Below are positions 1,895 through 15,248 of a stretch of DNA of 15,337 bases, in pieces. The notes under the pieces are model-generated. The model was not told the DNA's origin and did no database searches. It was given only the letters and a program-made list of their open reading frames with translations. The DNA lies in contig JAISXN010000157.1 of assembly GCA_031270525.1 (NCBI GenBank), positions 1 to 15,337 of the forward strand. Reading direction: 5' to 3'. Position numbers and translations under genes: made by a program. Numbering within the stretch: the stretch's first letter is position 1; every line of letters starts with the position of its first letter. This stretch comes from Candidatus Symbiothrix sp. Its GTDB lineage: Bacteria > Bacteroidota > Bacteroidia > Bacteroidales > Azobacteroidaceae.

Positions 1895-2188
1895 TCAAAC
1901 AACCGAGCAATTGATTTGTGTTTTCCCGATTCCACTTATCTTCAGAATGCGTTCCGGCTCCTTATAAACTTTATATGCTACAAAACAAATGCAAACGTGC
2001 ACTTCAATACGTTTTTCGGTAAAAATGACAACCTTGACGTCGTTTTCCAATTCAAGAAATTTATTGTAACCCCGTTTGTTGATGTTCTCTTTTGTAATTG
2101 TCCGCTTCTGTAAGCAGCGACCACCTCTTTTGTCAACCACAACAACACTTGTGCTTCCTGACCTGTTTTTCTTTTTGCGTACAAACAT
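1895..2188 (-). pseudogene. IS1634-type transposase remnant with internal deletion
   Basis: A short reverse frame joins the two ends of an IS1634/IS4-like DDE transposase. The N-terminal start 'MFVRKKKNRSGSTSVVVVDK' (ATG at 2188) matches the usual 'MFVRxKKNxSGxxSVQIIDK', and from about 2011 to 1940 it reads 'KRIEVHVCICFVAYKVYKE' plus ERILK, which is the typical C-terminal 'ERIEAHICICFVAYKVYKELER'. A full protein would be roughly 500-600 residues; here about 35 residues separate the two motifs, so the catalytic core is gone. The element could not move by itself. Its N-terminal end abuts and overlaps the broken 5' end of the tubulin-like gene. The heptamer TGCGTCA at 1861 recurs inverted at 2188-2194, a possible but unproven trace of element ends. 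Confidence 0.7.
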
Positions 2189-3453
2189 GACGCAAATGAT
2201 TTTGGGTAAAACCGACAACAAAACTATTTCTATTCTCTTTTCCGACTGTATTTATTCCATTCACGGCTCTGACAATGCTGTGGGCTTGCTTCAAGACGAA
2301 AAAAATTTAACAAAAGACGCTTTTCTCTCGAAATGGAAAAATGACAAAGTGCCGCTTGCCACTACTATTGTAAAAATGAAATCGAGATTTGACGGCAAAT
2401 ACTATCCCTTTACCGGCGATCACAACGGCTATACCATCACGGGCGACCGCATTTTTATCATTTCTTCCATTTTTGGTGGAACAGGTGCGAGCGGTTTTCC
2501 GCTGTTAAGAAAATTGTTGCACAAAGATAGAAATATTGCCAATGGAGAATGGGGACCTATAAAAAATGCACCCATTGGGGCAATTACGGTTTTGCCGTAT
2601 TACAATGTAACAAGTGCAGACGACAACGATAACAGTTCGGTAACCGCGCAAGATTGGAACGACAAAGCAAAGGCGGCGTTGGATTACTACATTAGCGAAC
2701 AAAACCATTTAGACACGCTTTATTACATTGGTGACACCAAGCCAACCACTTACCCGCATTGCAAGGGCGGTGTAAATCAAACCGACCCTGCCCACATTGT
2801 AGAAATGGCGGCGGCGTTGTCTGTCGTTGATTTTGCAAAGAAAGCCACAAACGATTTCGCAATTACCAACAATGGCGATAATCACGCTACTACCTACAAA
2901 GAATTTGGCATAAATAAAGAAACGCAGGTCGATTTTTCAATGCTGTATCAGGAAACTCAAAACACTATTGTCGAGCCGCTTTCCCGCTTTTTGCTGTTCT
3001 CTAAATATATGGACTACAATGCTGTTGCCGATAACAATCCAAAGCAGGTAAAAAATTACGGACACAATCTCTAAAAAAGACGGTAATAATCATTACGATA
3101 CCACAGGCATAAAACAATCTTATGCCATTCGCAAGGGTTTTGATGCAGCTTTTCGCACAAACGAATTGCAGGCATTAGAAACGATTCAGAAAAGTTATGT
3201 GGATTGGTTAATAGAATTAGAAGCACAAACTCGAAGTTTCAGTCCGTTCAACCTTGCCGTATCAAGAGCAGACGAGTTTGTAAAAACTTTGCAGTTGTGG
3301 AATGGTGCATTGTTCAATAGAAATTGGGAACGGGTAACAAAAATTCTCAACGACACTCATAGTAGCATTGATGAAGCACTTACAAAATCGCAGAAATTTC
3401 TATTGCTTTTCTCAAAAGTTACAGAAAAATTATTAACCCTTAAAATTCATTAA
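2187..3453 (+). pseudogene. Tubulin-like protein, 5'-truncated and frameshifted
   Basis: This resembles the bacterial tubulin-like family (Pfam Tubulin_2 type), not FtsZ. The GTPase signature loop is clear at 2475-2495: 'IFIISSIFGGTGASGFPLL' (tubulin GGGTGSG-like motif T4). It is followed by 'IGAITVLPYY', 'LDTLYYIGD', 'GGVNQTDPAHIVEMAAALSV' and a C-terminal helical part 'VDWLIELEAQTRSFSPFNLA'. The frame holding the GTPase loop stops at 3072-3074; coding resumes in the next frame at about 3061 (DTISKKDGNNHYDTTGIKQS) and ends at 3453. Deleting one A from the A6 run just before 3055 gives an uninterrupted '...NPKQVKITDTISKKDG...'. The N-terminal ~100 residues, including the first nucleotide-binding glycine loop, are absent: sequence upstream of about 2190 is transposase remnant. 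The ATG at 2187 is nominal. Only 4 bp separate it from the actin-like gene, so the two formed an operon. GTP binding by this copy is unlikely. Confidence 0.72.
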
Positions 3454-3457
3454 AATT

Positions 3458-5749
3458 ATGTCACATATTTTTAGATTAAATACGGAATTACAAAACGGTC
3501 AAGGCACTTTGCCGCCTACCATACAAGATTGGGGAAACACGAATGCGATGGGTTACACGCCCACCGAAATTGCTCAAATTCCGCCGTCAAATCCAAACTC
3601 TACCAACGAGCCAACTTCTATTCCTTCGCCCTTTGCGCGTTTGGCTCTGACAAAAACGGCATTTAAGGAAGTCGCTGAAAAAGGTGCAAATGCTTTGATG
3701 GCGTACCGGCAAATTGTTTCCAACAGTTTAGATGTTGCCGAGATATTCTTCAATTTCAGCACACTTAAAAACCACGCAGGGCTTGAAATTATAAAATGGG
3801 CGTACAATCCTGACTTACAAAATATTCGGAGCAGTATTCTTAAATCTACTTTGGAACTGTTTTTCGATGGCGATGCGCAATCATTAAATTTGAGTAACAC
3901 GACAACTTTTTATTTCATTCGCCACCGCGATACAGGAAAAATAATCGGCGGTACTTCGCCCCGCACACTGTTTTTTAGTGCGTCAAATGTAAAACGGCGC
4001 AGAGGTGGCATTGTTGAACCCGAATTTATCAAAACAGACGGTACCCTCTTTGTGAAAAATGAAATTACAAACGATGAGGCGCAATACGGAAAAATGGAAT
4101 TGAGCAACAATCATTATGCTTTCAGTGAGATAAAACCATTATCGGAACGCGATATTAAATTTCAGGATTACTTGCACACTTGGGTAAAAACGAATAATAT
4201 CGTTGTACTTGAACTTTCAGCATATTTGCGAAGTCAAATTGTTGCGGCTCAAACTGCGCATTTCAACGCTTTGCCTGCCATTTTGAATGCCTACACACGA
4301 ATACAATGGCTCACAGATGACGACTTTTTGGAAAAACATTTGATTACATTACCCGAACTCGACTGCAAAAACTTTGTTACAGGTTCTTACGATAACAATA
4401 ATAAAAAGAATGGCACATGCTTGTTGCCACTTACCGAAGAATTTTTCAAGTATTTCAAAGTCGAAGATTTGCAAAGAAAAGATTTTTTTGAAATACGAAA
4501 ATCGGGAGATGTGTATGAGGTAATACTGCGTATTCAAGTAAAAAAAGGAACAGTAGAATTTAGCAAGAAATACAAAACCTTTGCAACCGACGAAAGCAAG
4601 GGCGAGGGATATGTAAAAAGTGGCAAACTCGAAAACTTTGCTCTTTTCCCAAATGTAAAATTCAACGAAGATAAAGATGTTTTTTACAGATTTATTTTGT
4701 TTAAACAAAACTTATTGCAAGCCGAAGCAAAATTTTTCAATGGTTCTGAACCTGCTGCAATTGAAGAAGTAAGGACAGTTAATCGCGGCGAAGATGCCGA
4801 CTTTAGCAAATACGAAACATATTTGTTGGAAAAGCACAATTTCGACAGAATACAAATTGGTTGCGACGACAATTCGCTCAAAGGTTTTATCGTTCCGCTA
4901 TTGCCTGAAAAACAGGCAAATATGGAATTTACTTTTGCAGTTGATTTTGGCACTACCAACACGCATATTGAATATTGTTATGGTAGCAACGACAGCCGGA
5001 AACTTGACATTGCAGAAACCGACAAACAAATAGTATTTGCGCAGGCAGACGAGTTGAAAAGTATTGTTACCGACATAGATTTTATTCCCGAAACTACCGA
5101 CGAAAGAAATTGCGATTTCCCAATTCGTACAGCATTGTCGGTGAAAAAAGTGGTAGAAAAATGGCAATCGCATTTCAACGACAAAGTATTATCGTTGCCG
5201 CAGGCAGGAAAATTGAATAGTTTTTATCAAAAAATCAACGGCAGATTTACCGCTAATTCGTCTGATATTGGCGATATTGCTTCATTTTTCTTTTCAATTA
5301 TCGACAACGACATAAAAGATGTAAATGTAAATGATGCCAATTATCACACATTGTTACAAAGCGATAGAAATCTGAAAATTGTTTTTTATCTCTTTTATTC
5401 CGCCATTGTCTATCATACGGCGCAACTGATGAAAACCAAAGGTTTTGACGCTCCCGGAAACATTACTTTTAGCGGCAATGGTTCAAAGGTTGTCAATATA
5501 CTTACCGAAAATAAAAAACTTGAAGCGTTAGCAAAAACCATATTCAAAAAAGTATATGCTGCCGAAGTTTCGCTCGAACTGAAATACGAATCGTCAAAAC
5601 CGAAAGAAATTACCTGTCAAGGAGGTATTAGAGCAGTCGATTGGAACGTAGATACAACGATTACAATTCCAATCGGAGTGTTGCTGAATAATAAACCTGT
5701 TGAAATAATGATTGGCAACACTACGGCACGCGAAATAAATAGCATGTAA
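3458..5749 (+). CDS. Large protein with C-terminal actin/Hsp70-like (ASKHA) ATPase domain
   Basis: 763 residues starting at ATG 3458, with no good Shine-Dalgarno. Residues 1-490 match no family I can name; they contain a Pro/Asn-rich start, then 'SPFARLALTKTAFKEVAEKG' (about residue 52), helical stretches and a basic 'NVKRRRGGIVEPEF' patch. From residue ~492 an ASKHA fold begins: 'FAVDFGTTNTHIEY' (phosphate-1 loop, Asp496) and 'NITFSGNGSKVV' (adenosine loop, about residue 669), the arrangement of actin, MreB and DnaK-type ATPases. No signal peptide or membrane segment is seen, so it is probably cytoplasmic. After the adenosine loop only ~95 residues remain and the frame ends beside a repeat element at 5752, so the C-terminus may be shortened and its last residues (NTTAREINSM) non-native. 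It follows a tubulin-like gene by 4 bp, implying a joint function. The function is unknown; a polymer- or nucleotide-switched complex is inference. Confidence 0.75.
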   Translation: MSHIFRLNTELQNGQGTLPPTIQDWGNTNAMGYTPTEIAQIPPSNPNSTNEPTSIPSPFARLALTKTAFKEVAEKGANALMAYRQIVSNSLDVAEIFFNFSTLKNHAGLEIIKWAYNPDLQNIRSSILKSTLELFFDGDAQSLNLSNTTTFYFIRHRDTGKIIGGTSPRTLFFSASNVKRRRGGIVEPEFIKTDGTLFVKNEITNDEAQYGKMELSNNHYAFSEIKPLSERDIKFQDYLHTWVKTNNIVVLELSAYLRSQIVAAQTAHFNALPAILNAYTRIQWLTDDDFLEKHLITLPELDCKNFVTGSYDNNNKKNGTCLLPLTEEFFKYFKVEDLQRKDFFEIRKSGDVYEVILRIQVKKGTVEFSKKYKTFATDESKGEGYVKSGKLENFALFPNVKFNEDKDVFYRFILFKQNLLQAEAKFFNGSEPAAIEEVRTVNRGEDADFSKYETYLLEKHNFDRIQIGCDDNSLKGFIVPLLPEKQANMEFTFAVDFGTTNTHIEYCYGSNDSRKLDIAETDKQIVFAQADELKSIVTDIDFIPETTDERNCDFPIRTALSVKKVVEKWQSHFNDKVLSLPQAGKLNSFYQKINGRFTANSSDIGDIASFFFSIIDNDIKDVNVNDANYHTLLQSDRNLKIVFYLFYSAIVYHTAQLMKTKGFDAPGNITFSGNGSKVVNILTENKKLEALAKTIFKKVYAAEVSLELKYESSKPKEITCQGGIRAVDWNVDTTITIPIGVLLNNKPVEIMIGNTTAREINSM

Positions 5750-5751
5750 CG

Positions 5752-5788
5752 GTTCGATTTCATGTCCCGTAGGGTCATAATGTTGGTA
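5752..5788. repeat. Isolated copy of the GTTCGATTTCATGTCCC repeat unit
   Basis: A 37-bp unit (GTTCGATTTCATGTCCCGTA, then a hairpin half and AATGTTGGTA) nearly identical to 5825-5861. It differs by a T in place of A at 5775, which breaks one stem pair. It begins 2 bp after the stop codon of the actin-like gene and marks the start of the repeat-rich gap. Positions 5789-5824 between the two copies are an AT-rich run of 'ATTCAAAGATT'-like repeats. Confidence 0.75.
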
Positions 5789-5818
5789 TCAAAAATTCAA
5801 AGATTTAAAGATTCAAAA

Positions 5819-6056
5819 ATTCAAAGTTCGATTTCATGTCCCGTAGGGACATAATGTTGGTAGAAACAGATATCCTCCCCCTGATGTACCGTCCCGCAGG
5901 GACGGAATATGCCGGAAAATACCTGCATTCCGTCCCTGACGGGACGGGGGCGGGGTGTGAGGCACACATTTTCTACCAACATTGTGTCCCTGACGGGACA
6001 CCTGAAAACTGTTATAGCTTATTTATTTCGCATCCCTAAATTATTGAATCTTTGAA
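5819..6056. repeat. Left arm of a large inverted repeat made of REP-like hairpins
   Basis: Pairs with 6636-6821 in inverted orientation. Positions 5819-5843 match 6797-6821 exactly (25 bp), and 5891-6056 match 6636-6802 with only a few differences plus one indel in the G-run near 5945. The left arm carries an extra ~47 bp (5844-5890) absent on the right. The arm contains four short palindromes with a GTCCC/GGGAC core: 5836-5852 (ATGTCCC-GTA-GGGACAT), 5889-5905 (CCGTCCC-GCA-GGGACGG), 5930-5947 (CCGTCCC-TGAC-GGGACGG) and 5984-6001 (GTGTCCC-TGAC-GGGACAC), plus GTGTG-AGG-CACAC near 5956-5968. The outer pairs change together on both sides, which argues for selection on the hairpin shape. I see no protein-coding gene here. 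Confidence 0.88.
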
Positions 6057-6092
6057 TTATTGAATCTTTGAACTATTGAATCTTTGAACTAA
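6041..6092. repeat. AT-rich 16-bp direct repeats (TTGAATCTTTGAACTA)
   Basis: Three consecutive copies of a 16-bp unit, TTGAATCTTTGAA(T/C)TA, follow the left hairpin arm and partly overlap its inner end. The same unit, inverted, adjoins the right arm. Such AATCTTTGAA arrays are non-coding spacers; each contains TCTTTG, part of a Bacteroidota -7 box, but no proper promoter is formed. Confidence 0.8.
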
Positions 6093-6189
6093 GTACAGCA
6101 ACTCCTATTCGATGCGCATCCGGCTGAAACCCGACGTAAAAAGGCGGTTGTCGGCGGTAACAGCTGCACCGCTCAAACCGAAAACTGCC

Positions 6190-6378
6190 ATTTTGTCGCT
6201 AAAAGCGAGGACGTTGTCGCTAAAAGCGAGGACGTTGTCAGTAAAAGCGAGGACATTGTCAGTAAAAGCGAGGACGTTGTCAGTAAAAGCGAGGAAATCC
6301 CTGCTCGGAGCGAGGAATTTCTCACTCCGAGCGAGGACGTTGTCACAAAAAGCGAGGACGCCCCCGCTCGGAGCAAGG
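6190..6378. repeat. Nine tandem 21-bp units (ACGTTGTCAGTAAAAGCGAGG type)
   Basis: Nine head-to-tail 21-bp units start at 6190, 6211, 6232, 6253, 6274, 6295, 6316, 6337 and 6358. The best-conserved part is AGCGAGG at the unit end. Units 1-5 and 8 share TTGTC(A/G)(G/C)TAAAAGCGAGG; units 6, 7 and 9 vary as CTCGGAGCGAGG or CTCCGAGCGAGG, which introduces local palindromes. Because 21 is divisible by 3, both strands read as heptapeptide repeats (+ strand TLSxKAR from an ATG at 6112 to a stop at 6435; - strand SSLLxTT). The + frame has no ribosome site or homology I recognise and ends inside a terminator stem, so I treat the array as non-coding, with moderate doubt. It lies between the two palindrome arms. 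Confidence 0.88.
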
Positions 6379-6398
6379 AATGAGGCTCAGCGGGAAGT

Positions 6399-6448
6399 AA
6401 AATCCCCGCTCAGGTTGTCGAACTTGACTTTTTGAGCGGGGATTTTTT
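6399..6448 (+). terminator. Strong rho-independent-type terminator after the 21-bp array
   Basis: AAAATCCCCGCTCA at 6399-6412 is perfectly complementary to TGAGCGGGGATTTT at 6433-6446, with a 20-nt loop and a run of six T at 6443-6448. A 14-bp stem with a CCCCGC core and T-tract is the classic intrinsic terminator for + strand transcription; in the other direction the T-run is only four. No gene leads into it, so it implies either a non-coding transcript across 6100-6440 or read-through from the actin-like gene. Confidence 0.8.
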
Positions 6449-6456
6449 CTGTTCGG

Positions 6457-6577
6457 GTCGCGGTGGCGACGCTGCAAGCCGGCTATTCATCCTGTTTACG
6501 CTTCACCCCCGCTCGGCGCAGGATCTGCCTGCGTCGGGTTAAAAGCATGTCTCCGGACGCTCGCTGCGAGACTTAAT
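6457..6577. other. Non-coding GC-rich spacer
   Basis: This stretch separates the terminator from the right arm. It holds two small imperfect palindromes, CGCAGG-ATCTG-CCTGCG at about 6518-6534 and GTCTC...GAGAC at about 6549-6572. I see no open frame of note, RNA gene or promoter box in it. Confidence 0.5.
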
Positions 6578-6656
6578 GGTTCAAAGATTCAATAATTCAA
6601 AGATTTAATAATTCAATAATTCAAAGATTTAATAGTTCAAAGATTCAATAATTTAG
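6578..6656. repeat. AT-rich TTCAAAGATTCAATAA repeats, right side
   Basis: About five copies of TTCAAAGATT(C/T)AATAA occur here, the inverse of the 16-bp unit at 6041-6092. The inner end of the right arm lies within it (6636 onward). The copy number differs from the left side, as expected for slippage-prone tandem repeats. Confidence 0.8.
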
Positions 6657-6821
6657 GGATGCGAAATAAATAAGCTATAACAGTTTTCCGGTGTCCCGTC
6701 AGGGACACAATGTTGGTAGAAAATGTGTGCCTCACACCCCGCCCTCCGTCCCGTCAGGGACGGAATGCAGGTATTTTCCGGCATATTCCGTCCCTGCGGG
6801 ACATGAAATCGAACTTTGAAT
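6636..6821. repeat. Right arm of the large inverted repeat, REP-like hairpins
   Basis: Reverse complement of 5819-6056 minus the 47-bp extra segment. It contains palindromes at 6691-6708 (GTGTCCC-GTCA-GGGACAC), 6746-6763 (CCGTCCC-GTCA-GGGACGG) and 6790-6802 (GTCCC-TGC-GGGAC), and the CACAC half-palindrome near 6731. With the left arm it could extrude a cruciform of about 185 bp per arm with a ~580-bp loop, or two transcripts could form long duplex RNA. Confidence 0.88.
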
Positions 6822-6893
6822 TATTAAATTATTAAATTTTTGAATTATTTACCAACATTAATTCAAAAATTTAATAGTTCAAAGATTCAATTA
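6815..6893. repeat. AT-rich repeats and a partial REP-unit end
   Basis: TTTGAATTATTAAATTATTAAATTTTTGAATTATT followed by TACCAACATTA (the inverse of the AATGTTGGTA end of the left units, as at 5779-5788) and more TTCAAAGATTCAATT repeats. This mirrors 5779-5824 and suggests that the outermost left unit also has a worn counterpart here. It ends about 70 bp from the sprA stop codon. No T-rich terminator for sprA is evident; only two small GGCTGNNAGCC palindromes occur near 6897 and 6938. Confidence 0.65.
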
Positions 6894-6962
6894 AGGGGCT
6901 GACAGCCGACAACAGAGAAGTTAAGTGCCGTATTTTTGGCTGAGAGCCGTTAAAGAACCTGC

Positions 6963-9900
6963 TTACCGCATCAAACTAACCCTGACGCTTATCCCGAAAC
7001 TGGACTTAGATACCGGATAAGCTGTTGCCGAGACCAGAGGATTACTGATTTGTTTGTCAAAAAATGCCTGCAGAGTAATTAACCGGCTTAAATTGTAGTC
7101 GGCCGAAAGTTTAATCATGGTTTGCGTGTTCCCATTTGTGGCTTGCGTTAAGTTGTCTTGAATTTTGCGAATCAGGTTTTGCGTCATATTGTAGGAAATA
7201 TCGGCTTTTATGTTCAGTTCGTTGTTGAAATTGGGGCCGCCGGTTTTCCTGATTTTCAATATGCGGTTGAAATTTTCAAAGCGGTAGCCGGTACCGACTG
7301 TGAAAGTTTTCGTTTTCGATTCTACAATCTGGTAGGCGGAAACATTGAGGTTAATATTCCGGTTGGTATTGTATTTGAGTGAAATACTCATATTGTTTTG
7401 CAGCGTAGAGTTGATTCCCAGCAACGGATTGAATGCTTCGACGATGCTGACGGCCGTAATGTCGTAGGGCGAAGAAGGATACGGGCGGTTGCTCGTTACA
7501 TTTTGGATAAATCCGATGTCGTCGTCTTCCGTGCCGACCCAGCTGAGAAACGAATTGAAAGCGCCTACGCTGTAAACGCTCGTGTAGTTGTGTTCAATCG
7601 TGAAAGCCTTGAAGTGTTTGTTGATAACGGGGATTTGCAACAAGCCGTCGTAAGTGATTTTCCAGTTGGGCAACAGTTTTGTCAGGGAAGGGAAAGCCGA
7701 GAGGCCGGTCGATTTGGCATCCTGCCCGGTATAAGCCGCAATGAAAGCCGGAATCAACACATCGGTCGAATTAATATCCACATTGCCGTTTTGGGGATCG
7801 AAAGGCTGTCCGGCCAGCGGATCGCCTTGCAGGAAACCTGCGTCGGGATAAGTTGTCCGACTGTAAACTTGCCGCAGGCGATCGGCAATCATATCCCTAT
7901 TGTTGAGGAAGGCGTCGAACGCTTTGGAACGGTAGCCGTTGTCGGCGCTGCTCGATTCGAAAGCCGTACCTATGCTGATGGTGGTCATTTTGAAGTCGCC
8001 GGTAAATTTTTTAGGCATGGTATTTAAATCGTTTCCATACATGAAATAGGTTTGTTGCCTGTCCGACCTTGTCCGTGTAGCATTCAAAACGATGCGCAGC
8101 CCGACAACCGGCTCCAGGTTGGCCGTGAAAGTGAAAGTTCCCGTTTTGTTGAGCGTAGACGGGGTGATGTTGTTTTCAATCGCTTCGTTTTCCATCAGCC
8201 ATTTGTTCTTTTTCGCCTTTTCGATATAATTTTCGCCGGCCAGTCCGAAAGCAAAAGCCACACCGGGAGCGCTTCCGAACGGCGTGGAGCCTTGCCCGAA
8301 GAAATTGCCGACGGTTGGTTGGAAATTGGGAATCATCATGTCGGTTCCCTCGTTGTATGAAAAACCGATCGACCGCACCATCATCAGTCCCCGCGCCGCA
8401 TATTGCAGGGTTTTGTACCAGGTTTCGTCGTCGAGCGGCGGCAACTGGGAAATGACGATTTTCAGGTTTACCGAATCCTTGCCCTGTATGCGAATCGAAT
8501 TGTTATCGACGGTTTTGTATTTGACGGGGTATAACTTGCCGTTTTCGTCCCGCGCCGTGATTCGCAGGCGGCTGTTGTTCAATTGATGAGCGACTACGGC
8601 TGCCGAATCGGGCATAAGCGTAACCGAGCCTTCGTATTTTTTCTTTTTCTTTTCCGATTCGGTTTTTTTTGCGTCGCCGGTCGGGTTTGCATTGGTGTTG
8701 CCTGTTCTTCTTCCGGCGTTTCGGGACGGCAGGCCTTTCGAACCCGTAAATTTTTTGTTTGCGTCTGCCAGAAATTGGGACTTGTTATAGAGGCTCAACA
8801 AGTCGAACTGGATATTTTCGATGCCGATGGTGCGGTTGTTGTTGATAATATTTCCCATTTCTACATCCTCCGTTTCGCCGTCGCTTTCGGCAGTGAGCAG
8901 GGCGCCTTTTTCCCAGTTGTATCCGCTGTTGAACGTGAGCGAGCCTTTGATAAAATTGAGTGCGGGAATGAGGTTGAAAGGAAGCGCGTAAGTAGCCGAA
9001 AACGTTTGTTTGTACTCCATCGGTTCGCCCAAATCGCGGAGGTCTTTCCATACGGATTTTTTCTGTTTCAGGTATTCGTCATCCGGCGTGAGATTGTCTT
9101 CGGTTAGCTGTTTGAGCGTTTCTATCCGAGCGTTTGTTCCCGAATTGAACGACAGGTTCAGGTTTTTTGTCAAACTCCATTGGGCTTTCAACGAGCGGTT
9201 CCAGTAAAAATCGTCCCTGAACGAAGGCGGAATCATGTTTACGCCCGATTCGCCCAGATCCCGCAGTTGCACTTCGTAATAGTTTCGGGTTCTTTCCAGA
9301 TTAATATCCAGCGATTTCGGCAGGTAGCCGATTTCAATATTTTGCAGGAATCCTCCCCCGTTTGAGCGGGCAGATGCGGTTTTGGAGCGTGCCTGTCCTG
9401 CCGTTTTTTCCGTTTTTTCCGATTTGTTACTGCTGTTTTTTGCGAAAGGTTTCCATGCTTTGAACATCGGCGAGAAAGAATAATTCAGGTTCACCGCCTC
9501 TGCTATTGTTTGTTCGTATTGAGTGGTTGCGTCCTGCATATAATTTTCGACATGCGACCAGTCGAACGAGAAATTGGCGGGGTCGTAAGGCATCGGGCGT
9601 TTGCTTCGAATATCCGCCCTGACGTTGTTGAAAGAAATTGATTTGACTGTTTTCCTGTTTTGAGCGAAACTTTGAATCGAATCCCGTTCCGCCTGCGTTG
9701 CCGTTGCGTCCAGGGCGTCTTTCAGCAAAACGTCTTGATCCATGGGATTGTATTTCGGGCTGACAACGTCTTCCGTGTAAGAATAATAGAGCGGAAGGTT
9801 GATTTTGGCCTTTTCGGGGAAAAAGCGGCCGAGATCAATTTGCGAAGCGATGTTGTATTGATAAACGTCGTCGATGTTCCTGTCCATAATACCCTGGTCC

Positions 9901-12900
9901 AAACTGCCGAAACCCGCCGTTTCTTTCCGTCCCGAAAAACCGATCGAACCCATGTTTGAAAGTCCGACATACAGGTTGGCATTTCCCGCCCAGCCGCCGT
10001 CTTCATTGAAATCGGTCAATCGCAACTCGTTCACCCATACTTCGGCGGATTGGGTAGCGCGTGAATTGTTGCGGACGCCAATCATGATTACCTTGATATT
10101 GGAAATGGTCGGATTTCCTACAACGCTCACTTTATTCATCGGTTTTTCGGGGTCGAAGATGGAAAAAGGCGTGTAGTAAGTAACTGTCGAACCGGCTTTC
10201 CGTTTTTCCCTGTTCCTTTCCAGTTTGAGGTCGGTAAGCAGTTCAAAGGGGAAATCAATCATGTTTGATTCAGGCCAGACCGTTCTCCTTGATTCGGAGG
10301 TTTCGATGTAACGGTTCGGAGGCGTGAGTGTCAGCGGCACTTCATATTCGTAGTAATGGCTCTTATAGTCCGAACCCAGGCGGATGAATACGGATAATTC
10401 GTTGTCCTGCAAATCGGTCGGCAGGTCGATGAGTTTTTCGGCATGGACAAACATTTGCAAACGGCGGTATTGGCGCGTATCCAGTCCGGTTGATTTGTAG
10501 ATTGCGCGGGCGTCGCCTTGCGAAAGGTTGTTGATTCGGAGTGACATGGATTGTTCGTTTTGCTGGCGCAACTGGGTTTGTCCGGGATCTAAAATTCGGT
10601 TTACGCCGGGAGGCATAACATAATTGACCGGTTCCTTGCTGCCGCTTTCTTCGATATTTACCGTAGACATGCTGATGGTACCGCTTCCCGCGGGCGGCAA
10701 TTTCGGGTCGAACAAGTCTTTCTGATAGATACGCCATTGACCGTAATCAAACTGCAGCGTTCCGAAACGGAGGATGACGGAGTCGGAGAAATCAGTCAGA
10801 AACATGCGTACGAAACGTATTGTTTTGAAATCGGAGATGTTGCCGATTTTCCCTTCGTATTCGCTGATGGGAATTTTGAATTGATACCAGTTAACGGTCT
10901 CGCTTTTACCGTTTTTCAGATACGGTTTCACTTCCATTTTCTGTACGATGAAATTTTTGCCGACGACCATGCTGTCGGGGCGAATCGCTACCCTGTACTG
11001 GAAATACTTTTCGGTTTCGTTGAGGGTATTGTCCTGGTTAATGTCTTCCACGTCGGGGACAAGCCGTGCGGCGGTGCTGTAATTTTCGGGCGAAGTGGAA
11101 GCATCGGCCGAGTTGCCTTCCACGCCGTTGTAATGCTTGTATCTGTCGAGGATGGGCAATTGCCGCGCATCGTAATCGCTACCCCTGAAATAGTGGTAAT
11201 TGTCGCCTGCAGGGTCGTTGTATGGCGAAAAAGGGTTGTCTATCATGCTTTCCCTTGTTTCGGGGGAAAGTACGCGGTCTAACTCCGTCAGATAGTCGGC
11301 ATAAGTATTGAAAGTAAATTCTTGTTCGGTGGGCAGACCGTCAAGTCCGACATCTTGCCTTGCCCGTGCGCCGTCGGCATTTTCGAAAGCATATACTAAG
11401 GATTGCTGTTGCGGAACCAGCCCCCAGGCCGTTTTTGTGACTTTGGCAGAGTCGCCGTCTATGGGCATACCGTTTTCGAAGAATTTCTTTTCATCTTTCA
11501 GGATGTCTTCCGAGATTTCGCCCAGGTTGAAATACAGATCGCCGCCACGGGCATTTTCGTTTCCGATAAAAGGGTCTAAGAGCCAAAATTCGAGGGTTTC
11601 GATGTTGTTGGCTTCAAAATCGGTGTTTCCGCTTTCGATTCGGCGGGTGATGCCGCCCCATCGTTTTTCGGGTTCGCTCAGTGTTCCGTTGGGGTTCATA
11701 CCCAAAGCGTCCAGGTTATACGGTCCGCGTTCGCGGGGATAATAAGCGAGGTTGAGTATCGGGATGGTTGCGGATTCCCCGAAAGTCGGGTCTTTATCGG
11801 GATAAAGTTCGCTTTCCGGTATTTCCCGCACGTAGTGGTCGGAGAGTTGGTCCAAATCGTTTTTGATATGGGTTGGCGTCAGCGAAGATTTGCGGGTAAA
11901 TAAAGCGTCGATGTGATACCAGGCCAGCAACGAACGGTTTTTGCCGTAGTCTGTATTATTTGATTTTGCGGATTCTTCAAACATTGTCGGCGTTGAGGCT
12001 AAGCTCCATGCGTAAGGCGATCGCAGGTCGACGATCTGTTTGGCCTGTTCGAAATCGTCGATGTATGAATAATTTCCGCCGTATTTGCTTTTGTAATGTC
12101 CCGGAATCAGGCGGGCGTATTCGGCGGTGAGGGTAATTTGGGAAGGCTCGGTGAGTTCCAGCAAGGGTATTTTGTCCAGTACATTGGTCAGCCACTGCGA
12201 TTGCGTTGCGTAATTGACGTTGAAACCGAACAGGGTATTGTTGATGGATTCCTGTCCCGGTTCGGTTTTCATCGTAAGCGGCATTTCGCTCAGGTTCATG
12301 AGGGTTGTCCCGATGTTGAATTGTTTGTTTACGGCGTAATTCAGGTTCAGCCCCATCATGGTTTTCCGTTGCAAACCGAAAGCGGCCTGGTCTTCGGATG
12401 AAGTTTGGATATTTGCATTCTCATAAAGCGGGTTGATGATAGTAACCTGTCCTGTTGCGTAATTGACGGTATAGTCGACGTTCTCTTTCAACTGTACGCC
12501 ATTTGCGGAGACGGTAACCGATCCTTTGGTAATCATTCCGTCGAGATTGATGTTGGATGCGTTGGAGCCTTTGTATTCTCCTGTGAGGATAAATTTATTT
12601 TTTTCGGCCGTTTGCTGCGCAATGGTCAATGTTGAGTCGTACAATTCCTGAAATACGTATTTGTCGGCAATCCTGTCATCGCCAATCATTTTCCGCAGGT
12701 GGGAGCCGAAAGGCTCGATAACGGGGAAGATAATTTTTCCCTCGTCGGCTTTAACGGTAAGGCCGGGAACGAAGTCGAAGAATCCGTCGGGACTTGACTC
12801 GTTGCGGGAATTTAAGCGGTCTAATTTTACCACCCGAAGCAACAGATGATTGGCGATTGCGCCTTCGGTAATGTAATTCAAATAAGCGCCTGTTGTATCG

Positions 12901-14525
12901 TTTAAGTACTTAATGTTCAGACGGAAGTTGTCGGAAGTTAAACTTTGGTTGTATGTCGTGACGGCATAAACGTTTCTCATCATCAGTTTCCATGTCTTGG
13001 CGGATGGGGAAACAGTCGTTCCTTTGATGAGTTTGACGTACAGGTTACTTTGGCTGTCGTTGGGATTATCGGTCGAAAATTCGCCGACTTGATAAGTAAC
13101 ACCTTTATAGACATACGAATATGCAACCGCCAGCACTTCGTCCGATTGCAGGGGATAACGCAGGGAAATATACCCTAACTGCGGATTGAAAGTATATTCC
13201 GAAGGGTCCAGTTTGCGGGCGTTTTCGATTTTTTCGTAGTCCAAACCGTTTTCCAGATGTCCCGTCAAAACCTGATTTACCGTACTGACGTCACGCACTC
13301 CCGAATAATTGTTTACGATATTGTTATATAAATTATTAACCCCATTGTAAGGCACGGAATCGGAGCTTGTCGGGAACGTGAAATCGGGATTGCTGAAAAT
13401 GCGGTGTTCGGCAAGGTCGGTAAAAGCGACAATATTCCGCGCTTCACTGAAATCCGAACGCCGATTGGTTATCCACACTTCTATCTTGTCGATGCTTATC
13501 GGAGATTTGATATAAGGCAGGGTGCTCATTGCCTCGTCGTACCGATTGTAGAAATAATGCGCCAGGAAATAGTACCTGTTTTCGTCGTATTTATCTACGG
13601 CCACTTCAAAAGGCGTTGTCTGTACGTTCCCCTGGGTGGAGATGGAGCGTGATTGCGATTCCTGCTGGGAGAAAACGGCGTCGACGGTCAATTTTCCGAA
13701 TTGCAATTGGGTTTTGATGCCGAACAGAGCGGCGCCGCCCCTGATAAGGGAGTTGGTCGTGTTCATGCTCACATTGCCTGCTTCCAGCACTTTGACGATT
13801 TCGTCTTCTTTTCCGTTGTAACCCAATTTGAGTTTTTTCGTATCGAAATCGAAAGTAGATTCGGTATTATAATTCAAATCGAAATTGAGTTTGTCGCCTA
13901 CAGAGGCCTTGATGTCGGTTTGAATCTGAGTGTCGAAATCGAAAGCGGTGTGATTCCGTTGCCGCTCGGTCAGCGTGGGGTTTCCGGTCGAAGTATGGGT
14001 GAAACCCACTTTAGTGGTCAGGCTTCCGCTTGCGTTCAGGCGAACGCCGCCCGGGCCGAAAATTTTATCGGCAGGGCCGATATTTACATTGAAATCGAAA
14101 GCCGACAGGGCGTCTTTTTCCTTTTTCTGCGCCATGCTGTCAAATTCTGCCGTGTATTTGTTCCTGTAAAACAAATCCCTGCTTCGTTGCAGGCTGTATT
14201 TGTAATACTCTTCGGGCGTGAGCGTGAGCGGGGTTTCAATGTCTTCGTTTCCGATTTTTGTACGCAGTTCATACAGGTTTGTCAGCGGATTGTATTCAAA
14301 ATCGGATTTGAAGTTTTGCGGCATGGACAAATCAATGGGATAAACGTTTTTCACGTCCCTGTATTCTTCGGGGACTGTTTTTGCTATCGGAAAAATCGTA
14401 TTCGCCGTATCCGTACTTTGGGTTGCAGCTTTCGGCGGGGGGGCCTGCGGCGACGACAAGCCGGAAAAACCGCTTGCCGAAGCGAGAAATATAAGCGTAA
14501 ATATGTATTTTTTCCCGGATTCCAT
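6963..14525 (-). CDS. sprA: SprA/Sov, type IX secretion system outer-membrane translocon
   Basis: SprA (Sov in Porphyromonas) is the giant outer-membrane barrel through which type IX secretion substrates leave the cell; in gliding species it is also needed for motility. This protein is 2520 residues, close to family size (about 2400-2500). Residues ~1-25 look like a signal peptide with no lipobox. Family hallmarks follow in order: 'SLIRGGAALFGIKTQLQFGK' near 255-280, 'YIDDFEQAKQIVDLRSPYAW' near 815-835, and 'LLPNWKITYDGL' with 'FTIEHNYTSVYSVGAFNSFL' near the C-terminus. Aromatic-ended alternating strands occur throughout, and it ends 'FGISVRVSLMR'. A Lys-rich stretch (KKTESEKKKKKYEG, near 1955) interrupts the second half. 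The ATG at 14525 is chosen because it overlaps the ruvA stop as TGATG; a TTG one codon upstream is less likely. No frameshift or early stop is seen. Its presence implies PorV, Plug and PorK/L/M/N homologues elsewhere in the genome. Confidence 0.95.
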   Translation of the reverse strand: MESGKKYIFTLIFLASASGFSGLSSPQAPPPKAATQSTDTANTIFPIAKTVPEEYRDVKNVYPIDLSMPQNFKSDFEYNPLTNLYELRTKIGNEDIETPLTLTPEEYYKYSLQRSRDLFYRNKYTAEFDSMAQKKEKDALSAFDFNVNIGPADKIFGPGGVRLNASGSLTTKVGFTHTSTGNPTLTERQRNHTAFDFDTQIQTDIKASVGDKLNFDLNYNTESTFDFDTKKLKLGYNGKEDEIVKVLEAGNVSMNTTNSLIRGGAALFGIKTQLQFGKLTVDAVFSQQESQSRSISTQGNVQTTPFEVAVDKYDENRYYFLAHYFYNRYDEAMSTLPYIKSPISIDKIEVWITNRRSDFSEARNIVAFTDLAEHRIFSNPDFTFPTSSDSVPYNGVNNLYNNIVNNYSGVRDVSTVNQVLTGHLENGLDYEKIENARKLDPSEYTFNPQLGYISLRYPLQSDEVLAVAYSYVYKGVTYQVGEFSTDNPNDSQSNLYVKLIKGTTVSPSAKTWKLMMRNVYAVTTYNQSLTSDNFRLNIKYLNDTTGAYLNYITEGAIANHLLLRVVKLDRLNSRNESSPDGFFDFVPGLTVKADEGKIIFPVIEPFGSHLRKMIGDDRIADKYVFQELYDSTLTIAQQTAEKNKFILTGEYKGSNASNINLDGMITKGSVTVSANGVQLKENVDYTVNYATGQVTIINPLYENANIQTSSEDQAAFGLQRKTMMGLNLNYAVNKQFNIGTTLMNLSEMPLTMKTEPGQESINNTLFGFNVNYATQSQWLTNVLDKIPLLELTEPSQITLTAEYARLIPGHYKSKYGGNYSYIDDFEQAKQIVDLRSPYAWSLASTPTMFEESAKSNNTDYGKNRSLLAWYHIDALFTRKSSLTPTHIKNDLDQLSDHYVREIPESELYPDKDPTFGESATIPILNLAYYPRERGPYNLDALGMNPNGTLSEPEKRWGGITRRIESGNTDFEANNIETLEFWLLDPFIGNENARGGDLYFNLGEISEDILKDEKKFFENGMPIDGDSAKVTKTAWGLVPQQQSLVYAFENADGARARQDVGLDGLPTEQEFTFNTYADYLTELDRVLSPETRESMIDNPFSPYNDPAGDNYHYFRGSDYDARQLPILDRYKHYNGVEGNSADASTSPENYSTAARLVPDVEDINQDNTLNETEKYFQYRVAIRPDSMVVGKNFIVQKMEVKPYLKNGKSETVNWYQFKIPISEYEGKIGNISDFKTIRFVRMFLTDFSDSVILRFGTLQFDYGQWRIYQKDLFDPKLPPAGSGTISMSTVNIEESGSKEPVNYVMPPGVNRILDPGQTQLRQQNEQSMSLRINNLSQGDARAIYKSTGLDTRQYRRLQMFVHAEKLIDLPTDLQDNELSVFIRLGSDYKSHYYEYEVPLTLTPPNRYIETSESRRTVWPESNMIDFPFELLTDLKLERNREKRKAGSTVTYYTPFSIFDPEKPMNKVSVVGNPTISNIKVIMIGVRNNSRATQSAEVWVNELRLTDFNEDGGWAGNANLYVGLSNMGSIGFSGRKETAGFGSLDQGIMDRNIDDVYQYNIASQIDLGRFFPEKAKINLPLYYSYTEDVVSPKYNPMDQDVLLKDALDATATQAERDSIQSFAQNRKTVKSISFNNVRADIRSKRPMPYDPANFSFDWSHVENYMQDATTQYEQTIAEAVNLNYSFSPMFKAWKPFAKNSSNKSEKTEKTAGQARSKTASARSNGGGFLQNIEIGYLPKSLDINLERTRNYYEVQLRDLGESGVNMIPPSFRDDFYWNRSLKAQWSLTKNLNLSFNSGTNARIETLKQLTEDNLTPDDEYLKQKKSVWKDLRDLGEPMEYKQTFSATYALPFNLIPALNFIKGSLTFNSGYNWEKGALLTAESDGETEDVEMGNIINNNRTIGIENIQFDLLSLYNKSQFLADANKKFTGSKGLPSRNAGRRTGNTNANPTGDAKKTESEKKKKKYEGSVTLMPDSAAVVAHQLNNSRLRITARDENGKLYPVKYKTVDNNSIRIQGKDSVNLKIVISQLPPLDDETWYKTLQYAARGLMMVRSIGFSYNEGTDMMIPNFQPTVGNFFGQGSTPFGSAPGVAFAFGLAGENYIEKAKKNKWLMENEAIENNITPSTLNKTGTFTFTANLEPVVGLRIVLNATRTRSDRQQTYFMYGNDLNTMPKKFTGDFKMTTISIGTAFESSSADNGYRSKAFDAFLNNRDMIADRLRQVYSRTTYPDAGFLQGDPLAGQPFDPQNGNVDINSTDVLIPAFIAAYTGQDAKSTGLSAFPSLTKLLPNWKITYDGLLQIPVINKHFKAFTIEHNYTSVYSVGAFNSFLSWVGTEDDDIGFIQNVTSNRPYPSSPYDITAVSIVEAFNPLLGINSTLQNNMSISLKYNTNRNINLNVSAYQIVESKTKTFTVGTGYRFENFNRILKIRKTGGPNFNNELNIKADISYNMTQNLIRKIQDNLTQATNGNTQTMIKLSADYNLSRLITLQAFFDKQISNPLVSATAYPVSKSSFGISVRVSLMR

Positions 14526-15100
14526 CAAAGCATTTTCAGTGCAAGTTTAATAATCTCTTCTACTGTTGAAGACGGTTTGTCTGCATATATTTTACCGACT
14601 GCCTTTTGGGATGCCAATTGATTGAAGCCCAACATGACGAGCGCCGAAACGGCTTCCCGTGCGACTTCGCCCGAAACGGCGTCGGGGGAGGTTGTTCCGC
14701 TGATTTTCACTTTACCTTTCAGGTCGAGAATAATCCGCTCGGCGGTTTTGATTCCGACGCCTTTCACGGCTTTCAGCGCATTGGCGTTTCCCGATGCGAT
14801 AATTCCTTCGAGTTCGTAAACGGCAATGGATGAGAGTACCATCCGGGCGGTGTTGGCGCCGACTCCGGAAACCGAAATCAGGAGCAGGAAAAGTTCGCGT
14901 TCGCGTTTTTCCATGAAGCCGAACAGTTGGTGCGCATCTTCCCTGATGGCTTCGTAAACAAACAGTTTACAGGTTTTTAAGTTGCCGAGCGCACTGTAAG
15001 TATTCAACGAGATATGGGCAAGATAACCCACGCCTCCTGTTTCGATAACCACCGAAGCCGGCGTTAATTCGGCAATTTCTCCTTTAATATAATCTAACAT
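14525..15100 (-). CDS. ruvA: Holliday junction branch migration protein RuvA
   Basis: RuvA binds four-way DNA junctions as a tetramer and loads the RuvB helicase for branch migration in recombination and repair. The 191-residue product has domain I (OB fold, 'MLDYIKGEIAELTPASVVIE' to about 63, including GVGYLAHIS), domain II with two helix-hairpin-helix motifs ('SVSGVGANTARMVLS' at 76-90 and 'VKGVGIKTAERIILDLKGK' at 112-130), an acidic/Ser-Thr linker, and domain III ('EAVSALVMLGFNQLASQKAV' at 149-168) for RuvB contact. The frame is open upstream to 15241, but the family start is the ATG at 15100; the extra 47 codons are unrelated. No Shine-Dalgarno is visible, as is usual in this phylum. A possible but weak promoter lies upstream (TTTTG near 15240 and TATACTTC near 15220, reverse strand). 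It is coupled to sprA through a TGATG overlap. Confidence 0.96.
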   Translation of the reverse strand: MLDYIKGEIAELTPASVVIETGGVGYLAHISLNTYSALGNLKTCKLFVYEAIREDAHQLFGFMEKRERELFLLLISVSGVGANTARMVLSSIAVYELEGIIASGNANALKAVKGVGIKTAERIILDLKGKVKISGTTSPDAVSGEVAREAVSALVMLGFNQLASQKAVGKIYADKPSSTVEEIIKLALKML

Positions 15101-15248
15101 GCGGTAATTTTTTGAATTAGCCAATTGTATTGATAATAACGAAGAAAAAGTCAAAAGCGTATATTTACGGGATGGAACGTTAAGGAATTTCAAATTATTG
15201 CAGCCTTGCCGCGCGAAGTATAACCTAAAATCCGCAATCAAAATTATA

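Follow-up and report, generated by a model that had tools for sequence, protein, structure and literature searches.

A decayed tubulin-like/ASKHA gene pair in Candidatus Symbiothrix and the conserved operon of its relatives, which holds motor-like genes

The stretch of DNA analysed here (the window; 15,337 nt, from Candidatus Symbiothrix sp.), which is contig C75 in an assembly of 230 contigs and 53% completeness, carries on its forward strand three consecutive open reading frames (ORFs; 2076 or 2187 to 3074, 3166–3453 and 3458–5749) that contain the remains of two adjacent genes, one specifying a tubulin-like protein and the other a large protein of the ASKHA (actin/Hsp70) class. An earlier note on this DNA had described such a pair, with the tubulin GGTGASG loop in the first protein, a frameshift, and 4 bp between the two genes. 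Both families, the GGTGASG (T4) loop at 2475–2495, and the 4-bp gap between the stop codon of the second ORF and the ASKHA start codon are indeed there, but the beginning of the supposed tubulin gene was misread. In particular, residues 33–127 of the first ORF (orfA) align over 98 positions with the lipoprotein encoded two genes upstream of the tubulin-like gene at two related loci (L030 and L066), and 64 of the 72 matches of this part at an E value of 0.01 are lipoprotein-family ORFs of the set of 80 related loci described below. Judged by these matches, the segment from approximately 2172 to 2441, which makes up roughly the opening 270 bases of the supposed tubulin ORF, is a remnant of another gene and is not tubulin. 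A profile of the tubulin-like family (A1) matches the window at 2439–3026 (E = 5.7e-67) and, in a second frame, at 3088–3447 (E = 4.4e-13), which confirms the frameshift and shows that it splits the tubulin remnant into two pieces between 3026 and 3088. The tubulin part begins at approximately residue 161–171 of its relatives, just ahead of the T4 loop, and it is for this reason that the T1 loop is absent from the window. With plain Pfam models, the sole match of the tubulin piece was to Tubulin_2 (E = 0.095, below the cut-off), and scans of the window pieces with Pfam, NCBIfam and PADLOC gave no match naming the pair.

The ASKHA profile (A2) matches the window in three stretches, 3458–4306 (E = 2.1e-80), 4286–5149 (E = 3.0e-87) and 5147–5809 (E = 1.3e-55), which come from two subfamilies: residues 1–285 of the ORF are of the kind found in protein P0003, and residues 275–564 and 565–758 are of the kind found in P0002, a protein named as Dysgonomonas capnocytophagoides (Table 1). 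Ahead of the third piece, P0002 residues 661–852, which hold the phosphate-2 loop, are skipped, and the C terminus is truncated such that the last ~108 of 1154 residues (P0002 numbering) are gone. Of the ASKHA loops claimed in the earlier note, the phosphate-1 (DFGTTN) and adenosine (SGNGS) motifs are present in the window ORF, but the phosphate-2 motif was not found there; the ORF gave no match to plain Pfam models. Taken together, these alignments indicate that the pair in the window is a decayed mosaic, or "fossil", copy of a conserved operon, its ASKHA gene being composed of parts from two subfamilies; the earlier note was right about the pair but had not noticed this mosaic of broken genes. 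Because the T1 and phosphate-2 loops have been lost, and because the motor genes found in relatives do not follow, the machine that the window copy would specify cannot work. Neither the tubulin nor the ASKHA profile detected a second copy in the window genome, at its 53% completeness. A genome of the same genus (G193), in contrast, holds two diverged copies of the operon, and recombination together with deletion would therefore be a simple origin for the mosaic in the window.

Table 1 Gene remnants and adjoining repeats in the window
Feature	Position	Strand	Basis or remark
vWA-like lipoprotein gene remnant, fused in frame to the tubulin remnant	2172–2441	+	69% identical, across 98 residues, to the lipoprotein two genes upstream of tubulin in L030/L066
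Tubulin-like remnant, part 1 (T4 loop; T1 half missing)	2442–3071	+	profile A1; at most 51% identity to relatives
Tubulin-like remnant, part 2 (C-terminal piece, different frame)	3088–3450	+	profile A1
ASKHA piece 1 (N-terminal domain, P0003-like subfamily)	3458–4309	+	84% identity to P0003 residues 1–285
ASKHA piece 2 (P0002-like subfamily; phosphate-1 loop at 4943)	4310–5149	+	78% identity to P0002 residues 371–660
ASKHA piece 3 (P0002-like; adenosine motif at 5471)	5150–5731	+	89% identity to P0002 residues 853–1046 of 1154
Repeat-rich stretch 3' of the truncated ASKHA gene	5752–6892		inverted arms 5948–6088/6604–6744 (141 nt, 95%), and others

Assignment of the two proteins draws on their relatives, and the motif and profile counts given here refer to families filtered by length (the ASKHA family, for example, consisting of 73 ORFs with 900–1400 residues). 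Among the tubulin-like relatives, the T1 loop is present in 80 of 80 and the T4 loop in 79 of 80; the Pfam models Tubulin and Tubulin_2 each match 33 of 36 at an E value of 0.001 or better, and the best PDB match of the tubulin-like protein is a tubulin/FtsZ GTPase (E = 0.012). In the ASKHA family the phosphate-1, phosphate-2 and adenosine motifs occur in 72, 72 and 63 of 73 relatives, respectively, and 61 of the 73 have all three in the right order and with the right spacing (median 211/143, compared with 184/144 in one DnaK). ASKHA comparisons with Pfam models pointed to MreB, FtsA and Ppx (E = 0.024–0.038), those with PDB to Hsc70 (E = 0.013) and MreB (E = 0.027), and a local hhalign comparison with a DnaK profile gave an E value of 0.0015, whereas five control families gave 0.23 or worse. 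This profile support for the ASKHA assignment is weak but specific. As far as profiles and motifs, on which the folds rest, can tell, the tubulin-like/ASKHA pair is real.

The earlier note had held that the two genes form one operon and a joint assembly, and had named a neighborhood survey of homologues as one place where that reading might fail. The pair was found to co-occur. A tubulin alignment search gave at least 538 loci in named genomes. In a set of the 80 most similar of these, a choice that biases it towards close relatives, the ASKHA gene is the gene directly after the tubulin-like gene in 79, with a median gap of 5 bp; at the exception (L124) other ORFs lie between the two, which are 3,679 bp apart. 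Genome samples gave the same picture. At the order level, an ASKHA match was obtained in 11 of 295 genomes, the window's own included, and the tubulin-like gene lies directly upstream of the ASKHA gene in 10 of 10 loci read (these loci come from nine of the ten other genomes, a weak match in G147 being left out). At the phylum level, among 395 genomes with the window's own included, the tubulin profile matched 13 and the ASKHA profile 10, and the two genes are side by side in 9 of the 9 other ASKHA-positive genomes (eight read at the locus, and G385 by coordinates only). Three tubulin-only genomes in this sample were not counted as pairs: G680 has a broken tubulin gene and no ASKHA gene, and in G478 and G576 the tubulin-like gene is followed by a large gene whose product has some ASKHA-like motifs but is not matched by the ASKHA profile. 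(Note that a scan of genome contigs with a single ASKHA sequence confirmed no relative.) Outside Bacteroidota, both proteins have matches on four plasmids, three from Picosynechococcus and one from Synechococcus, the ASKHA match in Picosynechococcus PCC 7003 lying in the gene right after that for tubulin; Gloeothece matches the tubulin only, and there the next gene is of similar size.

The two proteins are also found as one. With residues 1–170 of P0026 as query, 23 proteins were listed, P0026 among them, and all 22 of the other long proteins match both profiles with the tubulin first; 21 of these natural tubulin–ASKHA fusions are 1,535–1,636 residues long and one is shorter, at 1,197. We take the fusions to be good evidence for direct cooperation between the tubulin-like and ASKHA proteins. 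Pairwise identities of the two proteins are correlated (r = 0.87, 73 loci) compared with values of 0.72 for tubulin and the vWA-like protein (77 loci), 0.73 for ASKHA and the MotB-like protein (51) and 0.70 for tubulin and the MotB-like protein (53), although shared descent alone would also yield a correlation. Because adjacency is near-invariant and fusions occur naturally, the idea of a joint assembly of the two NTPase superfamilies is supported. Tubulin-type and actin/Hsp70-type NTPases normally belong to separate systems, and the near-constant adjacency, the occasional fusion and the presence of motor-like and envelope genes lead to the testable prediction that here they cooperate directly. 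Bacteria of the Candidatus Azobacteroides kind have termite guts as their habitat; intact copies of the operon are present in many other bacteria, and the operon-bearing genomes include the cultured Parabacteroides distasonis An897, Flavobacterium, Maribacter, Winogradskyella and Myroides.

The survey also supplied the third genes that the earlier note had wished to see. The usual order is a vWA-like lipoprotein, a small membrane protein, the tubulin-like protein (~480 residues when intact, of the Tubulin_2/FtsZl1 kind), the ASKHA protein (~1,100 residues), a variable secreted protein, a MotA-like protein, a MotB/ZorB-like protein and, often, a protease. Across the 80 loci the vWA-like gene is present in 78, the small membrane protein gene in 79, the MotA-like gene in 64 and the MotB-like gene in 53, and either a MotA- or a MotB-like gene is found in 60 of the 66 loci that have at least 5 kb beyond the ASKHA gene. 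The vWA label is based on an [ED]xSxS-like motif seen in the alignment, and a lipobox-like motif occurs in 46 of 77 vWA-like lipoproteins. At one locus (L033), the MotB-like protein matches ZorB1 (E = 2.7e-12) and, in Pfam, weakly OmpA (E = 0.033) and MotB_plug (E = 0.0033). The MotA-like profile compared by local hhalign with MotA_ExbB proteins gave an E value of 4.1e-5, as against 0.025 or worse for five controls; a GxxGT region is present in 52 of 62 MotA-like proteins, and a W-x-S-x-x-D motif with its conserved Asp in 51 of 55 MotB-like proteins. A crude hydropathy count gave three to four segments in 61 of 62 MotA-like proteins, one in 55 of 55 MotB-like proteins and two or three in 78 of 79 small membrane proteins, and the genes directly after ASKHA specify a hydrophobic N terminus in 68 of 72 cases. 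Proteases, counted with small profiles, occur at 44 of 80 loci (30 trypsin-like and 14 aspartyl). Because the linked genes resemble those for an ion-driven motor, a lipoprotein and secreted proteases, they point to the cell envelope; a role in partition or transport, which the earlier note had entertained, finds no support in them, and the conflict role that it had also suggested is possible.

Starting from the observed gene order, adjacency, fusions and sequence families, we lean, with some reserve, towards the view that the intact operons specify a machine that spans the envelope, is powered by ions and has a joint tubulin/ASKHA switch; the window holds a decayed copy. In such a machine the tubulin-like and ASKHA proteins would form one complex on the cytosolic side, the assembly of which would be switched by GTP and ATP state. 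This complex could be tethered to the inner membrane by the small membrane protein and by the MotA-like subunit through its long C-terminal part, and there a peptidoglycan-anchored MotA/MotB-like channel would convert an ion gradient into motion; outside the cytosol, the lipoprotein and the protease may sense or act. Control would run in one of two directions, from nucleotide-dependent assembly to the motor or from the motor to assembly. More specifically, and doubtfully, a tubulin-family GTPase and an actin/Hsp70-family ATPase, which some species have as one polypeptide, might be envisaged as a dual-nucleotide switch or co-assembly that drives an ion motor like the flagellar stator across the envelope, or is itself driven by that motor.

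A number of observations weigh against this envelope-spanning machine. The Pfam scores of the L033 tubulin and of P0121 fall just under the curated cut-offs, and the ASKHA–DnaK alignment, which is restricted to the phosphate-2 region, reaches an hhalign probability of just 16.7%. A strict DxSxS is found at the motif site in 2 of 18 vWA-like lipoproteins, and Pfam vWA was not found in the two lipoproteins scanned. Motor genes are absent from 6 of the 66 loci with long downstream sequence; moreover, the hhalign probability of the MotA-like match to MotA_ExbB is 70.1%, and the MotA-like protein of L033 is closer to PADLOC LeoBC (E = 6.2e-8) than to ZorA (E = 0.028). By crude hydropathy, 30 of 80 tubulins and 44 of 73 ASKHA proteins may contain at least one membrane segment, because of which the cytosolic placement of the pair is an assumption. 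Finally, location in defence islands was not supported: of 21 genomes, 1 (G601) has an N6-methylase at a distance of up to 20 kb from the operon, and 3 of 80 loci have homologues of three type I restriction-modification query proteins near it. (The 21-genome test had no control set, and 3 of the 21 operons are on contigs of less than 10 kb; a tyrosine integrase is near the operon in 2 of these 21 genomes, G286 and G200.) A phage origin of the operon was likewise considered; phage records searched with the tubulin P0121 alone, and not with ASKHA, gave no match. Three IMG/VR contigs labelled viral (L182, L183 and L184) carry a tubulin relative, and the one of them that was read (L183) has the operon from the vWA-like to the MotA-like gene; these contigs are possibly mislabelled or prophage-borne bacterial DNA.

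What such a machine would be used for can be stated with less assurance. The motor of Zorya, the published conflict systems with tubulin or HSP70 and the patchy occurrence of the operon (13 of 395 and 5 of 45 genomes, counting the window's own) suggest defence, and by analogy with the layout of Zorya an accessory surveillance of the envelope against outside attack, such as by phage, may be imagined, an idea that we hold weakly and rate at somewhat less than an even chance, with the machine itself granted. Because envelope parts are present and a defence-island signal is missing, envelope upkeep is also a possible use. Indeed, the operon might not be a conflict system in any sense, specifying instead an envelope-maintenance or stress device (for membrane remodelling, and Tol-Pal-like) in which the tubulin/ASKHA assembly positions a motor that pulls on envelope parts. 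The lipoprotein, the small membrane protein, the OmpA-type MotB (with its weak OmpA and MotB_plug scores at L033), the secreted proteases, the lack of a defence-island signal, the membrane remodelling already put forward for FtsZl1 (in the text of PMC2875224), and the occurrence of TerD genes with OmpA at one relative locus and of TerY and TerC upstream at another would all fit such a device; however, the patchy occurrence is unlike that of a core envelope function, and the best-named relative of the MotB-like protein is ZorB, and we consider this explanation unlikely, if the most serious of the alternatives. Less likely again is that the broken mosaic in the window is an artefact of assembly or binning, in which reads from two diverged copies were misjoined. 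The fragmented, incomplete state of the window assembly, the two diverged copies in G193 and the finding that both internal ASKHA joins are in frame are what such an artefact would produce, but it would not readily account for several kinds of damage occurring together, namely loss of the T1 half, a frameshift, an internal loss and a C-terminal truncation beside repeats. That the large partner is no ASKHA-class NTPase, its motifs being convergent and the protein only a scaffold, accords with its weak overall similarity to ASKHA proteins and with a window copy that lacks phosphate-2, but is very improbable given three ordered and correctly spaced motifs in most relatives and given that Pfam, PDB and the DnaK profile, which are unrelated comparisons, all put the phosphate-2 region with ASKHA families.

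Among described systems, the envelope-spanning machine proposed here looks like the FtsZl1/vWA-type operons, newly with a tubulin–ASKHA partnership and a motor-like pair. FtsZl1 (Tubulin_2, PF13809) operons, with vWA, GTPase and OmpA proteins, have been described and a role in membrane remodelling proposed (Makarova and Koonin 2010, PMC2875224), and Tubulin_2 proteins are, according to the text of PMC9871819, a sparse and divergent group. The present operons share with them a divergent tubulin that matches Tubulin_2, together with vWA-like, OmpA/MotB-like and membrane protein genes; unlike them, they have an ASKHA partner, a MotA/MotB pair and tubulin–ASKHA fusions, none of which is named in the text of PMC2875224 (the terms 'Hsp70' and 'MotB' do not occur in its main text), and the P-loop GTPase of FtsZl1 operons is without a Pfam match in the L033 operon. 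Because the supplements of that paper lie outside the literature comparison, the ASKHA family could be among its unnamed linked families. Our finding offers partners for FtsZl1-type tubulins, for which membrane remodelling is the sole role proposed in the text of PMC2875224. A second likeness is to the GTPase-centred (GAP1) conflict systems, operons that have tubulin, HSP70-family and vWA proteins near the membrane (Kaur et al. 2020, PMC7159879). As presented in the text of PMC7159879, though, tubulin and HSP70 belong to non-overlapping themes that have TRAFAC GTPases and GAP1 as their base, the tubulin theme being one of firmicutes and actinobacteria, whereas here tubulin and ASKHA are direct neighbors or fused, with MotA/MotB-like genes. 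No P-loop GTPase family was found in Pfam at an E value of 1 among the seven proteins of one operon, that of L033.

Zorya systems are defined by ZorC plus ZorD, or by ZorE, beside ZorAB. The likeness of the present operons to Zorya lies in the match of the MotB-like protein to ZorB1 and in a MotA-like protein that has a long C-terminal part and matches ZorA weakly; in contrast, no ZorC, ZorD or ZorE match was found at an E value of 1 in the nine proteins scanned, seven of which belong to the L033 operon. In Zorya, ZorA and ZorB form a 5:2 complex, as given in the text of PMC11890865. With MotAB, ExbBD and TolQR motors the present genes have in common the MotA-like GxxGT region and profile match and the MotB-like W-x-S-x-x-D motif, and they differ in being set in a tubulin/ASKHA operon; the terms 'tubulin' and 'FtsZ' do not occur in the text of a study of MotAB relatives (PMC12505986). 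In the literature searched, which consisted of papers without their supplements and mostly outside subscription journals, we recognized no published description of this operon.

Some features of relative loci and of the window may be recorded separately. At a distant relative locus (L063, 990–11172, reverse strand), two TerD-matching genes, a third TerD-similar gene identified by eye, and an OmpA protein gene lie 3' of a Tubulin_2-type gene; in Myroides sp. N17-2 (L120, 456–5609, forward strand), TerY and TerC genes lie upstream of the operon; and at L112 (19494–20318, forward strand) the operon is followed by a gene for an Exo_endo_phos family nuclease, homologues of which are found at 5 of the 80 loci, L112 included. 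Upstream of the broken operon in the window, at 316–879 on the reverse strand, is a fragment of an IS630-type transposase gene (NCBIfam transpos_IS630, E = 1.7e-19; Pfam DDE_3, E = 2.2e-13). The ~1.1-kb stretch at 5752–6892 contains long imperfect inverted repeats and short direct repeats around palindromic GTCCCKNNRGGGAC-like units, and the three forward frames of 5747–6985 gave no blastp match to the fetched operon proteins at an E value of 1e-3. Within it, 21-bp tandem repeats at 6112–6435 (forward strand) read, as an ORF, as KARTLS-type units and may be non-coding. Beyond this stretch, an ORF of 2,521 residues (6963–14528, reverse strand), which we take to resemble the gliding/type 9 secretion protein SprA, adjoins a RuvA gene (14525–15241, reverse strand; RuvA by Pfam).

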